Positions 30,062-36,650 of a stretch of DNA of 46,710 nt are shown here, piece by piece. Position numbers and translations under genes: made by a program. Every line of letters begins with the position of its first letter. The stretch's first letter is position 1. Below the pieces are notes generated by a model that was not told the origin of the DNA, made no database searches, and saw nothing but the letters and a program-made list of their open reading frames with translations. Source of the DNA: a virus. The stretch is from IMG/VR virus record IMGVR_UViG_3300042691_034972, positions 1 through 46,710 of that record. One strand, 5' to 3'.

Positions 30062-31585
30062 GTGGCCGGAACAAGTCTTTATTCAGTTTATAGGCGTACG
30101 GCGCGAGCAGCAGCTCAAAAGCGAGTAGTTAAACAAACTAGTAGCGTCGATATTGCGCGGGCACGTACGGATTTTGCTTATTTTTGTGATGTAGTCGGAG
30201 ACAAACCGCCGGCAGCCCATCACCTTGAATGGCACAAGCACTTATGTACTGATGAAGACTCGGTCTGCCTAAAAGGTATTGCTGGCCCAAACATAGATAT
30301 TCTTGCCCCACGTGGTAGCGCAAAATCCAGTGTTTTAGGTTTATTCACTGCCTGGACTATTGGCGTGCACGCGCTGCATAAAATGCCGTTGAAGATTCTT
30401 TATATTTCGTACACAATTGATGTTGCACGCCCAAAAAGTGCAGCGATCAAAAGAATTATTGAAGAGAGTAAAACTTATAACGAAATTTTCCCAATGGTTA
30501 AAATTGCCAAAGGGATTAACTCTAACGAGTATTGGAGCATTGATTGGAAATTCGCTGGAATTAAATCAACCGGTGAAGAGGAATTTACTGTTTGTTGTGC
30601 AGGCTTGAAAGGCGCTGTGACCTCTAAGCGTTCACATCTTTGTATTATTGACGACATCTGTAAATCTGCTGACGAAATTAAAAATAGAGATATTCGAACA
30701 GCAATGGAAGATAACTGGAATTCCGTTATTGTTCCAACTATGTTCGAAGGTGGTCGCGCTATCTGCTTAGGTACGCGTTTCCGGCATGATGATATGCACG
30801 GCACCACCTTTATTCCAGCTAATGATTGGGTCCAACTGGTGCAGTCGGCGATTGTTGTTGATCAGGAAGGTGAAGAAATCTCCTATTGGCCCGACATGTG
30901 GTCTTTAGAGTATCTGCAAGATCGACGACGACAAGCGCCAATTGCTTTTAGTTTCCAGTACCAAAACCAAATTGTACAAACTAGTGAGCTGTCGCTCTCA
31001 CCTGACTTAATTGTGAAGGGCACAATTGCCACACAATTTGATGCCATGGGGGTTGGTGTTGATCTTTCTGCTGGTGTTCGAGAGCAGAATGATTACACCG
31101 CGTTCGTGATGGGTGGTCGCGTCAAAGATAAAATTCACATCATCGACTGTAAACGAATCCGTATTATGGGTAACCTAGAAAAGCTGGAAGCCCTTATGGA
31201 GATGATGGAGGAGTGGGGCGTCATCCATAAGGATGGCGGGCGGTATTTCCCCACTGGAAGCAATATCGATATCTGGTCAGAGGCTGTTGCCTACCAAGCC
31301 TCGTTAGAAGCTGATTTTAAACGAATCTGTCTTGGTGACCACGGACTTTATAATATGCACTGGCATGCGGTCAAAGGTTTTCGGGGAGATAAGGTTGCAC
31401 GCTTCCGTGGAATCATGGGCTTGTTCGAGCAGCGTAAGTTAATTTTCAATAAATATCGACGGTTCGGGCCGTTAACAGATGAGATCATTAATTTTGGTGT
31501 TAGCTCCCATGATGACACAGTCGACGCATTGGTATGGCTTTGCAACGGTCTGATGACACGTGGCAAATTGGAGCTAGCGTTTTAA
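30062..31585 (+). CDS. terL: Terminase large subunit
   Basis: TerL is the ATP-driven motor and nuclease that packages phage DNA into the prohead. The 507-residue product has Walker A APRGSAKS (82-89), Walker B LCIIDD (193-198), the C-motif region CLGTRFRHDD (235-244), and nuclease-domain acidic residues in GVDLSAG (332-338) and HDDTVDAL (483-490). Length is normal. GTG 30062 is the only early start before an in-frame TGA; AAAGGA is unusually close (one base). It follows the candidate terS by 41 bases. Confidence 0.96.
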   Translation: MAGTSLYSVYRRTARAAAQKRVVKQTSSVDIARARTDFAYFCDVVGDKPPAAHHLEWHKHLCTDEDSVCLKGIAGPNIDILAPRGSAKSSVLGLFTAWTIGVHALHKMPLKILYISYTIDVARPKSAAIKRIIEESKTYNEIFPMVKIAKGINSNEYWSIDWKFAGIKSTGEEEFTVCCAGLKGAVTSKRSHLCIIDDICKSADEIKNRDIRTAMEDNWNSVIVPTMFEGGRAICLGTRFRHDDMHGTTFIPANDWVQLVQSAIVVDQEGEEISYWPDMWSLEYLQDRRRQAPIAFSFQYQNQIVQTSELSLSPDLIVKGTIATQFDAMGVGVDLSAGVREQNDYTAFVMGGRVKDKIHIIDCKRIRIMGNLEKLEALMEMMEEWGVIHKDGGRYFPTGSNIDIWSEAVAYQASLEADFKRICLGDHGLYNMHWHAVKGFRGDKVARFRGIMGLFEQRKLIFNKYRRFGPLTDEIINFGVSSHDDTVDALVWLCNGLMTRGKLELAF

Positions 31586-31827: not shown

Positions 31828-31847
31828 GCTGAATTCCCAGATTGACC

Positions 31848-34106
31848 ATGAGCGATAGTAAAAACGTTCTAGATTCTATGCTCAAGGCGGTCATTTCCCG
31901 CGATGGTAGCGATCAAACCGATACCATGCTGGTAAATGCCCACCTCTCCCAAATGAAGATGTTTGGGGTGCGTCAGGGTGTTGAGTTCTACCCAGCCCAA
32001 GATAACTTGGGCACACAGCGATCTGATTTTATTCAGCAGGTCATCAAGTTTAATAAACTGGATGCTCGTCTGGACTCGATCTGGGATCGCTTTTTGGCCT
32101 ATGGTAAAGGTCTTTTTTATATTCGACCGACTAAGAAAACATATCGACTCTACTGGTTCGATAAAGATGCGTATCGAACTTACTACTCTACAGAGGGAGA
32201 TTTAGAAGAAGTCATCATTATTTATCCGTACAAAGTAAAGTCTACGAAAGGCTTTCAAGGTGTTGGTTTAAGTACGGATAAACGTTATATGCGTCTTCGT
32301 ATTACAGCGACTGAAATTGAAGAGTTCCACAGCGAACAAGAAATTTCTTTCGACATGCCGTCACTGGAAGCTGGCGCTTTCGAAAAGAAGACCGTTGTCA
32401 ACAGCATGGAATTTATTCCATGTGTGGAAGTATTTAACAATCCAGATGCTTTTGGCACCGAAGGTAGCGGTGAATTTGATTGGATGGCTAACCAGATCAT
32501 CGCTCACGATGAAATGGTTAAAAACATTCGAGCAAACCTTTCATTTTTCGGCAATCCCACATTACTCTCTTCCAGGCCAAAGCAAGATATTGTCGAGAGT
32601 AACGACACCGATGTAGCACAGCGCCCCAGTATTTCCAGTCAGTCTGGATTCCAGTCTGAGTTTTTCTTATCCAGTTCAACCTTTAAGCAGGATAACGTCA
32701 CACGGCAGCCTCCAGGCTATATCGGAAAGCCTGGCTCCGGCATGCGCGTACCTCGAGTCATCGCGAACCTGGAGCCAACAGATCGTGTCGGTTTTATCAC
32801 CCCAAACGCAGTTAGCACAGATCAGGCGCGGTATGCAGAACAGCTTCGTAGTGAAATTCGCTTAGCACTTGGTGGCATTGATGATTTAAGCATCACCAAC
32901 GTAACTGCAACCGAGATCAAATCGGCTTATGGACGTGTCAGTGCTACAGCCAAGAAGAAATGCTTGATGCTCTATACATACGGCATTTGCCGTTGCTTCG
33001 AATTAATGATCTTCCAGGAAGAGCAAATCTTCCGTAAATCATTGGCATACTCACTGGGTATTAAGTATCCAATTCCTCCCGAAGATACAGAGGACGAGGC
33101 TGCTGTAACTAAGTACGAAAAACAGTTGGTAACTTATGAGAAGAAACTTCAAAAAGCTCTAGATGCTGTTATCGAGAACCGCGAGATTCCCAGTGGCGTT
33201 TTAGGTCTTGCCCCAGACGGTGATCGTGCTGTTATGTGGCGCTGGATGGGACCTGTATACGAAGATACGGCACAAGATAAACTTAACCAATCTATCTTCA
33301 CGAGGAACCTACAGGAATTAGGGGTTGATAGCATTGAAGCACTGAAGTATTTATTCCCTTCTAAAACGGATGATGAAATCGCGGGGATGCTCTCCGGTTT
33401 CCCATTCCGAATGGTAGGGGAAGTACAGAGGGCCTACTCAGCATTTATTGATCTAATCAATCAAGAAATGCGAACACCACATCCACAGCAACCGAATTTA
33501 CCGATGGCTGCGGATCCGAGATTAGATCTCACTCCCTTCCTTTACCGAACACTCGAAAGCCTACAAAAAGAGGTAACTTATGCAGGCCGATACCGCAATG
33601 CCGACCCAATCGGCACCCCAAGCATCCCCGATCCAGCCGAGCAGCTACGGGGCTCCGGTGGCGCAGACGGCGGCACAAGCGCCAACGGTTTCAACGACGT
33701 CCCAATGGGTGGCGCCCTACCAGCAAGCGGTGGCCCCAGCCCCGCAAATGCAGGCCCAGATGGGGGTCAATCCGTACCTGTCAACCCCTACAGCGTCATA
33801 CCCCCAAGCGTACCAGGCAGCCCCACAAGCGGAGAACCCTTACAAGGAGGCGTTCAACAAGGTAGTGGGGCTCCTGAGTTCGCCCGTCCAATTCCCGTTC
33901 CAGGGTCAACAGTACAGTCAGAACCAAGCCTACGACCAGGCCAATTACGCTTCCCAACAGGGTCTCCAGTACAACAATTTGGCGACGGAGACCTATACGC
34001 CTTCGAACAACAGCAGCCAGGCGTATTACAACGACTATTCCCAAACTTCTCCGGTAATAACGGAGGAAATGCTGCTGGACAACGGGGTAAGCGAGCAAAG
34101 TCTTGA
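31848..34106 (+). CDS. Portal protein
   Basis: The portal forms the dodecameric DNA-entry ring at one capsid vertex. The 752-residue product has a head-tail connector-like core: DFIQQVIKFNKLDARLDSIW, FLAYGKGLFYIRPTKKTYRL, WMANQIIAHDEMVKNIRANL, EIRLALGGIDDLSITNVTAT, LYTYGICRCFELMIFQEEQI. The last 170 residues are Pro/Gly/Gln-rich and probably disordered, and coincide with the overprinted gene at 33580. ATG 31848 is chosen over TTG 31842. Location directly after terL supports the call. Confidence 0.85.
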   Translation: MSDSKNVLDSMLKAVISRDGSDQTDTMLVNAHLSQMKMFGVRQGVEFYPAQDNLGTQRSDFIQQVIKFNKLDARLDSIWDRFLAYGKGLFYIRPTKKTYRLYWFDKDAYRTYYSTEGDLEEVIIIYPYKVKSTKGFQGVGLSTDKRYMRLRITATEIEEFHSEQEISFDMPSLEAGAFEKKTVVNSMEFIPCVEVFNNPDAFGTEGSGEFDWMANQIIAHDEMVKNIRANLSFFGNPTLLSSRPKQDIVESNDTDVAQRPSISSQSGFQSEFFLSSSTFKQDNVTRQPPGYIGKPGSGMRVPRVIANLEPTDRVGFITPNAVSTDQARYAEQLRSEIRLALGGIDDLSITNVTATEIKSAYGRVSATAKKKCLMLYTYGICRCFELMIFQEEQIFRKSLAYSLGIKYPIPPEDTEDEAAVTKYEKQLVTYEKKLQKALDAVIENREIPSGVLGLAPDGDRAVMWRWMGPVYEDTAQDKLNQSIFTRNLQELGVDSIEALKYLFPSKTDDEIAGMLSGFPFRMVGEVQRAYSAFIDLINQEMRTPHPQQPNLPMAADPRLDLTPFLYRTLESLQKEVTYAGRYRNADPIGTPSIPDPAEQLRGSGGADGGTSANGFNDVPMGGALPASGGPSPANAGPDGGQSVPVNPYSVIPPSVPGSPTSGEPLQGGVQQGSGAPEFARPIPVPGSTVQSEPSLRPGQLRFPTGSPVQQFGDGDLYAFEQQQPGVLQRLFPNFSGNNGGNAAGQRGKRAKS

Positions 34107-34578
34107 TGTCATCAACCACTTCGGTGCTGATGCTCCAGCCCTTCTGAACCAGTACGCTTGTTCTGTAGAAGACACGCTGCTCGCTACCAATGCGCAGCTT
34201 CAAGAGGCCATCGGTCTGCTTCAGGAGCTTTCTCATGAGCACCGCGCTTATGAGGCTATCCTGACGGATCCAGATATCCTGGCCGATTACACCTGCGAAT
34301 TCTTTGGCGAGAACGGTCCTTATCCAATCCCCGATTCGGAAATTGGTTACGGCCGTCCCCAGGGGCAGGCAATTGGTACTCAGTATCAGCGCCCCACTGC
34401 TCCTGAGCGTCCTCAGATGCCTGTTCCTCCTCAACCCCAGATGCAAGGCAACCCCGCCGCCTTCTGGAACAATTTTGGAGCCCTGGCTGAGCGTGATCCC
34501 GCCAACGCCTGGCGTTATCTGAACTCTGCACAACAGAACCCTGACGTGTTCCGCCAGAAAATGCTGGTGATGGAGTGA
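33580..34578 (+). CDS. Scaffold-like protein overprinted on portal 3' end
   Basis: The 332-residue product has a Pro/Gln/Tyr-rich first half (MQADTAMPTQSAPQASPIQP). A helical middle (ALLNQYACSVEDTLLATNAQ then LQEAIGLLQELSHEHRAYEA) and an end with NPAAFWNNFGALAERDPANA follow. The gene starts inside portal with AGAGG six bases before ATG 33580 and shares 527 nt with it in another frame. Position between portal and capsid and its composition fit a scaffolding/assembly protein; that function is inferred. The last part has strong codon bias like the capsid gene. Confidence 0.75.
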   Translation: MQADTAMPTQSAPQASPIQPSSYGAPVAQTAAQAPTVSTTSQWVAPYQQAVAPAPQMQAQMGVNPYLSTPTASYPQAYQAAPQAENPYKEAFNKVVGLLSSPVQFPFQGQQYSQNQAYDQANYASQQGLQYNNLATETYTPSNNSSQAYYNDYSQTSPVITEEMLLDNGVSEQSLDVINHFGADAPALLNQYACSVEDTLLATNAQLQEAIGLLQELSHEHRAYEAILTDPDILADYTCEFFGENGPYPIPDSEIGYGRPQGQAIGTQYQRPTAPERPQMPVPPQPQMQGNPAAFWNNFGALAERDPANAWRYLNSAQQNPDVFRQKMLVME

Positions 34579-34611: not shown

Positions 34612-34632
34612 AAAATGAGTAATTGTAAAATA

Positions 34633-34660
34633 AGGGGTAGCAATGCTACCTCTTTTATTT
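34633..34660 (+). terminator. Intrinsic terminator after scaffold gene
   Basis: AGGGGTAGC pairs with GCTACCTCT around AAT (nine pairs, one G-U), then TTTATTT. Together with the hairpin at 34589 it separates the scaffold from the next gene. Confidence 0.8.
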
Positions 34661-35504: not shown

Positions 35505-36650
35505 ATGTTTATTGATAACGATTTTCCCAAGCTGTTGGGTGCGGAGCTGTACCGCCCCCATCCAGCTTATATCGTGGAAATGGCTTGCGAGCCTGTTGTT
35601 GTCCACGACTTCACCAAACAGCCGGGTCAAACCGTTCAACTTGACCGCTATCGTTTCTGGGGTAGCCCTGGAACGAAGACTAGCCGTGAGCGTACCCAGG
35701 ATCAAACCATCGGTACTGCTAACAGCCGGTCTATCGTAAAGGACAAGGTGCTGGTGTCTCTGCGTGAGTACACCGGTCCCGCTGACCCGAACAACACCAA
35801 CCTCCCGAGCACCTTTAAAATTGCTCGTGAGACTCTGATGACCGCTCAGCGTCTGCTGCTGGACACCGGGAACCTTAACATGTTCCACCAGTCCATCGGT
35901 TCGCTGACCCTCCTGGACGACTATCGCCGCTGGCGCGACCGTGTGTTCCTGGACGAGCTGTTCAAGGCTGAGTCTCGCGGTGCCGCTTCTGATAGCCAGG
36001 GTGGTTACTACTACCCCAACGGTAAGACCAAATCTTCCGCGACTGCTCTCAACAACTACACCGCTACCGAGTACGCTTCTGAGCGGTTCAAGTTCAACGT
36101 CAAGACCGACCTTCTTGAGGTTGTGAAGCAGCTGCGTAAGCGTAACACCCCCGTGTTCGCTGACGGCTACTACCGTTGTATCGCCGATCCCTCTTTCATG
36201 AAGGATCTGCGTGCTGACCAGGGCTTCCGCGAAGTGGCCCGCTATCCTGGCACTGGTGTTCCTAATCCCCTGATGGGAATGATGGCCCCCAACGCTGCTC
36301 TGTACGGTGGCGGTCAGTTCGGTCAAGCTCAGTTCGTGGCTGGTGAACCCGTCATGCCTTCTGGCTTCGTGTTTGAAGGTGTGCGTTTCTTCGAATCCAC
36401 CAACTTCCCCGACAAGAGTATCTCCGTCGACATCGGCAGTGGCGGCGGCTCTGCAACTCGCACTACTCCTGCTGGTCTGTTCTTCGGTCCTCAGGCTGTC
36501 GGTGTAGGTATTGGCGGTCCCAATGCTCAGGTTCTCATCAATAACAATGATGACTTCAGCCGCTTTATCATCCTGATTTGGCAGCTGTACGCCGGTTTTG
36601 CTAACCTGAATAAGGACTTCATTACCACTGCCTTCACCATCGTTGAGTGA
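35505..36650 (+). CDS. Major capsid protein (N4 gp56-like)
   Basis: The 381-residue product shows the order seen in N4-gp56-type capsid proteins of the HK97 fold: FTKQPGQTVQLDRYRFWGSP, REYTGPADPNNTNLPSTFKI, LLDDYRRWRDRVFLDELFKA, TPVFADGYYRCIADPSFMKD, GEPVMPSGFVFEGVRFFEST and a Gly-rich loop before FAGFANLN. Codon use is strongly biased to C-ending codons, so strongly that long open frames appear on the opposite strand, a mark of very high expression. It sits after the scaffold. Capsid role is by similarity plus context. Confidence 0.88.
   Translation: MFIDNDFPKLLGAELYRPHPAYIVEMACEPVVVHDFTKQPGQTVQLDRYRFWGSPGTKTSRERTQDQTIGTANSRSIVKDKVLVSLREYTGPADPNNTNLPSTFKIARETLMTAQRLLLDTGNLNMFHQSIGSLTLLDDYRRWRDRVFLDELFKAESRGAASDSQGGYYYPNGKTKSSATALNNYTATEYASERFKFNVKTDLLEVVKQLRKRNTPVFADGYYRCIADPSFMKDLRADQGFREVARYPGTGVPNPLMGMMAPNAALYGGGQFGQAQFVAGEPVMPSGFVFEGVRFFESTNFPDKSISVDIGSGGGSATRTTPAGLFFGPQAVGVGIGGPNAQVLINNNDDFSRFIILIWQLYAGFANLNKDFITTAFTIVE

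Follow-up and report, generated by a model that had tools for sequence, protein, structure and literature searches.

Probable dual coding of a portal tail and an internally started scaffold-like protein in phages related to Synechococcus phage S-EIV1

In phage lambda the Nu3 scaffold gene lies nested in the C gene; Nu3 is translated from an internal start there, in frame with C, and its sequence is common to both proteins. The locus described here resembles Nu3 in that a scaffold-like gene starts inside an upstream head gene, but differs in that the two reading frames are not the same. The small phage phiX174 is under genome-size pressure. Its out-of-frame dual coding (cited in PMC8227390) is a further likeness to our locus, although the genome of the relative Synechococcus phage S-EIV1 (KJ410740) is 79 kb. 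The Rz/Rz1 spanins of lambda and its relatives, as presented in PMC6139136, resemble our pair in belonging to one pathway, in overlapping out of frame and in that the second gene is often missed; the survey of 677 phages in that source counts 182 embedded and 228 overlapped pairs, with o-spanins often unannotated. Those are lysis genes whereas ours are presumed head-assembly genes, and no homology is claimed. Across 12,609 virus reference genomes, overlaps in +1 are given a median length of 14 nt (IQR 8-26) when overlaps of 1 or 4 nt are excluded (PMC8903798). One account of P22 makes portal incorporation dependent on the scaffold and does not define which part of the portal is involved (PMC9320234); in that light it is fair to ask what the two overprinted segments do, and no more than that. 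Overprinting in phages is thus already known, and it is the portal-scaffold pair and the depth of the overlap that look new; a search of the open-licence literature by titles and abstract openings found no report of a portal-scaffold overprint.

The window analysed here is a whole stretch of 46,710 nt of viral DNA (IMG/VR record IMGVR_UViG_3300042691_034972) from a phage lineage related to the freshwater cyanobacterial virus S-EIV1. A portal-like gene sits between the terminase and capsid genes, and the scaffold-like gene sits between the portal and major capsid protein (MCP) genes (Table 1). The portal-like ORF (31842-34106) encodes 754 aa from its TTG, or 752 aa from the ATG, and is laid out as a core to about 33579 followed by a Gly/Pro/Ser-rich tail of about 175 aa. 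The initial annotation had pointed out the deep out-of-frame overlap of the two genes and an internal start with a Shine-Dalgarno sequence in the portal gene. The coordinates and the frame offset were reproduced, and both the Shine-Dalgarno sequence and the ATG were found again and are kept in relatives; its suggestion of overprinting is now backed by conservation, by the codon-position pattern and by dual-frame substitution ratios, all of them sequence evidence.

Table 1. Features of the portal-scaffold region, in window coordinates.
Feature	Position	Strand	Basis or remark
Terminase large subunit	30062..31585	+	profile matches; context
TTG	31842	+	alternative portal start
Portal-like gene	31848..34106	+	ORF call, phrog_20475 match, terL-portal-scaffold-MCP order, identity to S-EIV1 AHV82224
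Frozen block	33318..33350	+	portal-only region; synonymous sites almost unchanged between clades A and B
Shine-Dalgarno AAAAAGAGG	33565..33573	+	6-nt spacer to scaffold ATG 33580
TAA in scaffold frame	33574..33576	+	two codons 5' of ATG 33580; shuts the frame there
Scaffold-like gene	33580..34578	+	332 aa, +1 frame relative to portal; ORF, start and frame kept in relatives
Probable dual-coding overlap	33580..34106	+	527 nt including portal stop; conservation, dual-frame selection, re-draws
Conserved segment	33838..33909	+	scaffold frame NPYKEAFNKVVGLLSSPVQFPFQGQ, strong; portal frame GVQQGSGAPEFARPIPVPGS, moderate
Major capsid protein	35505..36650	+	phrog_1357, E 5.2e-16; 71.7% identity to S-EIV1; context

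The product of the upstream gene is a putative portal. Nearly its full length matches phrog_20475 ('virion structural protein') with an E-value of 2.4e-208, its match to the portal family phrog_64 is weak (E 2.2e-4), and Pfam SPP1_portal scores 15.6 bits, under the cut-off of 25.5. All 45 portal-like proteins scanned match phrog_20475, while 12 match phrog_64 (best E 3.9e-5) and 3 match phrog_104, another portal family. An AlphaFold2 model of the window portal had a mean pLDDT of 42, too poor for fold comparison, and PDB sequence-profile searches gave one irrelevant match apiece (E 1.1 and 1.3). The second protein is a putative scaffold, so called from its gene position and a low-confidence predicted shape. 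It matched no Pfam or PHROG family, and when 50 scaffold-like members were compared with PHROGs the best E-value was 0.08 (one member), none of the eight listed families being described as scaffold; since scaffolds are diverse, the missing family match is a weak argument against a scaffold function, but we do not count the protein among the known scaffold families. Its AlphaFold2 model is of low confidence (mean pLDDT 47.9). Residues 1-160 are of very low confidence and mostly without structure, with a short helix at 87-100 that is also poorly supported, and long helices are predicted at 185-242 and C-terminal helices at 292-331, with pLDDT blocks of 66-80 over residues 181-250 and 55-74 over 291-330.

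We consider it highly probable that these S-EIV1-like phages carry a dual-coding region for a tailed portal and an internally started scaffold-like protein, both of which would be translated. Ribosomes on the portal gene would produce a portal extended at its C-terminus by a low-complexity tail that is probably disordered, while other ribosomes would start at the strong Shine-Dalgarno-ATG within the same gene and read the +1 frame to give the scaffold-like protein. The first half of the latter would be an arm rich in Pro, Gln and Ala in which one short segment is conserved, and the second half is predicted to contain the long and C-terminal helices. Portal C-termini generally face the capsid interior, and the portal tail and scaffold arm may meet inside the procapsid. 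Because the scaffold has its own ribosome-binding site, the scaffold-to-portal ratio need not be fixed by the overlap. A more elaborate version would make the tail and the arm binding partners whose interface evolves as one unit, with structured RNA and the frozen block upstream tuning internal starts and thereby setting the scaffold-to-portal ratio; we regard it as rather unlikely.

Relatives were mostly IMG/VR contigs, together with one cultured phage, S-EIV1. Each portal-query scan of viral contigs was limited to its best 80 loci, so that more distant relatives may have been missed. From the first two of these scans came 162 sequences, including the window and S-EIV1; 157 reach the second gene, all in the +1 arrangement, and 5 end before it. 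In the next 145 loci 124 more reach the second gene, again all in +1, and 21 end before it. The pooled set of 451 sequences consisted of 153 duplicates, 36 contigs that stop short of the overlap or early within it, and 262 unique sequences, many of which are close relatives of one another. Among the matches listed, all 262 unique sequences reaching the second gene have the +1 arrangement. Every one carries AAAAAGAG or AAAAGGAG 5' of an ATGCAG and a scaffold-frame stop two codons 5' of that start (TAA in 71, TGA in 191), and the scaffold frame is open as far as each sequence extends. The portal frame is closed in 241 of them and cut by the contig end in the remaining 21, and the overlap measures 506-644 nt in 240 of the 241. 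In the exception (L171) the portal frame stops at 185 nt, some ten bases away from the contig end; we take this stop for a sequence error, though unproven. A homologue with a stop inside the shared part, which the initial annotation had named as evidence against two coding frames, was therefore encountered once, beside a contig end, and the other 240 closed portal frames have no such stop. The same annotation had also envisaged portals ending near residue 580, or scaffolds lacking the N-terminal part. None appeared among the matches listed: no relative without the overlap was found in viral contigs (portal queries, best 80 loci per scan), in genome contigs (four relatives among 100 stretches) or in phage records (E limit 1e-5, S-EIV1 being the sole match). 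The overlap is found in both main clades, that of the window and that of S-EIV1, and so most likely predates their split.

S-EIV1 is the only one of 50,697 phage records to match the portal, scaffold and MCP under the limits applied; the window terminase matches 137 of them. It has the same gene order as the window, the same overlap (554 nt in S-EIV1) and the same ATGCAG start (at 59287 of KJ410740), with identities of 51.5% for the portal (AHV82224), 41% over 73% of the length for the scaffold, 72% for the MCP and 64% for the terminase large subunit (TerL). Its second ORF encodes 325 aa and overlaps the portal gene, but the GenBank entry AHV82225 covers the last 133 aa only and the overlap is not annotated.

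Conservation, taken together with position-specific substitution, is the decisive evidence. Codon positions were analysed in 86 sequences (37 of clade A, 49 of clade B) at less than 98% identity, out of 135 complete ones. In clade A the pairwise differences at portal positions 1/2/3 are 0.086/0.041/0.468 upstream and 0.190/0.081/0.175 in the overlap; the corresponding clade B values are 0.140/0.079/0.472 and 0.249/0.107/0.148. Third-position diversity thus goes down about threefold and first-position diversity goes up. The scaffold-only part is ordinary in its own frame, with 0.117/0.083/0.445 (A) and 0.133/0.091/0.423 (B). Dual-frame ratios were estimated for 116 representatives (27 A, 89 B) from pairs at 85-97% and 60-85% identity, using 600 of 3,580 pairs in the 60-85% class of clade B for the overlap and portal-dummy estimates. 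Portal dNN/dSN in the overlap was 0.37 (0.24-0.55) and 0.41 (0.28-0.55) for the two identity classes in clade A, and 0.52 (0.36-0.73) and 0.70 (0.53-0.91) in clade B. Scaffold dNN/dNS was 0.23 (0.15-0.33) and 0.33 (0.23-0.45) in clade A, and 0.21 (0.16-0.26) and 0.32 (0.25-0.41) in clade B. A dummy scaffold frame placed in the portal-only part gave 0.68 (0.56-0.84) and 0.86 (0.74-0.99), from 600 of 665 and 600 of 1,174 pairs, and a dummy portal frame in the scaffold-only part gave 1.43 (1.02-2.20), 1.53 (1.09-2.17), 1.35 (0.92-2.04) and 1.56 (1.17-2.18). Since the dummy frames are not exactly 1 the estimator is biased, and it is against these dummy values that the overlap ratios are clearly lower in both frames. 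Within clades both frames are thus under purifying selection, and dual coding of the shared DNA is well supported by these comparisons.

If the scaffold alone were encoded in the overlap, the portal frame past about residue 580 would be accidental. The portal tail is indeed the less constrained of the two frames, with a ratio of 0.70 in the more diverged clade B pairs, its length varies with the overlap, and L171 has its stop there. Yet when the scaffold protein was held fixed, not one of 23,200 synonymous re-draws (200 for each of 116 sequences) left the portal frame open, its closed frames in relatives run the full 506-644 nt into the scaffold gene with the one exception, and its ratios of 0.37-0.70 lie well away from those of the dummy (1.35-1.56). 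We therefore hold an accidental portal frame to be very improbable.

The converse, that the portal alone is encoded in the overlap and the scaffold-like protein starts downstream, is how the S-EIV1 record reads, with its product of 133 aa. It also draws on the ease with which the +1 frame opens: with the portal protein fixed, the scaffold frame was open in 11% of re-draws on average, in 25% for the window and in up to 82% for one sequence, while in 7 of the 116 it was open in 0 of 200. Because it is so often open in these re-draws, openness of the scaffold frame is by itself weak evidence. Against a downstream start stand the Shine-Dalgarno sequence, the ATGCAG and the upstream stop, kept in 262 of 262 sequences, the fall in portal third-position diversity and rise at the first position, the scaffold-frame ratios of 0.21-0.33 compared with 0.68-0.86 for the dummy, and a conserved AFNKVV segment in the arm. 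We find this alternative barely credible.

A third alternative would attribute the loss of synonymous variation to RNA structure or to recombination within clades instead of to two proteins. Within-clade synonymous variation is in fact low from 33318 to 33580; the drop comes 260 nt ahead of the overlap, in DNA that has no second frame conserved open. Synonymous divergence between clades A and B in the portal frame of the overlap is uneven, with intervals between 0.015 and 1.0, many of them at the upstream level. The synonymous-site suppression foreseen in the initial annotation hence holds within clades, but it sets in before the overlap and is not uniform between them. Because of this early onset and uneven divergence, we let the two-frame case rest on the within-clade codon-position pattern, on the dummy controls and the re-draws, and on the conserved start. 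It is the codon-position pattern and not just the level of variation that changes in the overlap, and the dual-frame ratios there are unlike those of both dummy regions. RNA folding just before the start is a further point in favour of this alternative, as 120-nt intervals lying within 180 nt of the ATG on its 5' side beat local synonymous shuffles in all 16 sequences folded, whereas no convincing shared structure was seen there. On balance an origin in RNA structure or recombination is about as hard to credit as a portal-only overlap. The least probable alternative is a programmed frameshift fusing the portal core to the scaffold frame, in place of or besides a separate scaffold, which the +1 direction common to all 262 sequences would suit; the scaffold-frame stop two codons before the ATG, beside the conserved Shine-Dalgarno sequence in every one of them, would terminate any upstream shift and leave room only for one after the ATG.

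The stretch upstream of the overlap has features of its own. At 33318-33341 synonymous divergence between clades A and B is 0.117, compared with 0.456-0.906 in intervals over 32139-33317; from 33342 to 33581 seven of ten intervals fall within the range seen upstream, and the other three lie below it (0.424, 0.355, 0.322). By manual count, 129 of 200 unique sequences have the frozen block as TTAGGNGTTGATAGCATTGAAGCACTGAARTA, the others differing at few sites, and the block is present as a single copy in the window and in S-EIV1. A hidden third ORF at 33318-33580 was rejected, as stops are conserved in both other forward frames in 86 sequences, and so was one on the minus strand, where no frame is open throughout in all 86. 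A sigma-70 promoter was likewise discarded: the window has TTGATA-17-TATTTA at the block but S-EIV1 has TACCTC at the second place (manual reading), and a promoter scan gave no site there. At 33400-33580, just 5' of the internal start, the mRNA of all 16 sequences folded gave better folds than their local synonymous shuffles. For these 16 of the 116 representatives, two 120-nt intervals within the last 180 nt before the ATG have mean z-scores of -2.56 and -1.48, and intervals ending at least 240 nt before it have means from -0.15 to -1.39. With dinucleotide shuffles of single sequences the z-scores were -1.57 for the window (15 of 200 shuffles folding as well), -2.71 for a relative (L242) and -2.50 for S-EIV1. 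RNAalifold on 20 sequences showed no convincing covariation in the stretch before the ATG; in alignments made by clade (all 27 of A, 45 of the 89 of B) the majority of intervals fold somewhat better than shuffles, but two clade B intervals fold worse than all 40. A shared RNA structure before the ATG was set aside, neither approach giving a convincing common fold, and an Rfam search gave no matches.

Turning back to the dual-coding reading, composition over the 116 representatives agrees with the low-complexity sequence noticed at the outset in both frames. The portal tail has 17.5% Gly, 13.5% Pro and 13.3% Ser, and the N-terminal part of the scaffold has 15.3% Ala, 14.2% Gln, 13.3% Ser and 12.6% Pro; the very low confidence of the scaffold model over residues 1-160 suggests that this part may be disordered. 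Within the arm AFNKVV forms a conserved segment, where the scaffold blocks at 33850 and 33880 (NPYKEAFNKVVGLL onward) have mean conservation of 0.91 and 0.86, with an overall mean of 0.66-0.67. The portal blocks at 33849 and 33879 (GVQQGS...PIPVPG) reach 0.72 and 0.74, and within-clade synonymous variation in the portal frame is 0.00-0.09 over intervals 33840-33894. Portal and scaffold conservation along the overlap correlate at 0.57, as expected for two proteins sharing nucleotides.

From an evolutionary point of view we lean, weakly, towards an older portal tail and a scaffold that acquired its N-terminal arm through a start further upstream, but the lines of evidence disagree. Phylogeny gives no order of origin, because no relative without the overlap was found among the matches listed. 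Codon usage compared with the other genes has z-scores of -2.1 (window) and -2.2 (S-EIV1) for the portal frame, -5.3 and -4.3 for the scaffold frame and -5.0 and -5.35 for the third frame, and this more native usage of the portal frame favours an older portal tail. So does the readier opening of the scaffold frame by chance. The AT of a Tyr codon (TAT) and the G after it make up the scaffold ATG, and NAT codons are named in PMC2542354 as a source of phase-1 starts when an upstream extension of a gene creates same-strand overlaps in bacteria; a start of this class again favours the tail. An older scaffold arm is favoured by the stronger constraint on the scaffold frame and by pooled RSCU, which matches the scaffold frame to the rest of its gene at 0.391 and the portal tail to the portal core at 0.128, the opposite answer to that of the z-scores. 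It is also favoured by the short length of the weakly related portal profiles phrog_64 and phrog_104, whose 547 and 550 positions give the tail the look of an addition.

Clades with portals only about half identical have kept an overlap of 506-644 nt that joins two presumed head-assembly genes, with low-complexity segments packed into one stretch of DNA where genome size offers no obvious reason. The overlap is well suited to testing how long overprints last. Gene annotation misses such overprinted pairs; as the S-EIV1 record is without the N-terminal part of the second protein, a proteomic search on the annotated proteins would miss those peptides.

A few observations were made beside these. 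In one relative (L165:6001-8402) the portal core ORF is split in two, the overlap itself being intact; its contig is binned as a Bacteroidetes MAG, yet it bears genes of the S-EIV1-like phage lineage. The MCP ORF of S-EIV1 at 60859-62010 (within L309:15784-17010, which is S-EIV1 60784-62010) is annotated as an antisense hypothetical protein, AHV82227, and a C-terminal fragment, AHV82228. The TerL of S-EIV1 (L309:9080-11620) contains an intein-like insert (Pfam Intein_splicing, residues 202-526, E 1.4e-11), and a Pfam scan detected no intein in the 507-aa TerL of the window. A terminator-like hairpin of 10 pairs followed by a T-rich stretch lies at 34632-34654, 3' of the scaffold gene and 5' of a 143-aa gene; the region has seven terminator-like sites compared with 5.4 (sd 2.7) in shuffles, near the number expected by chance.
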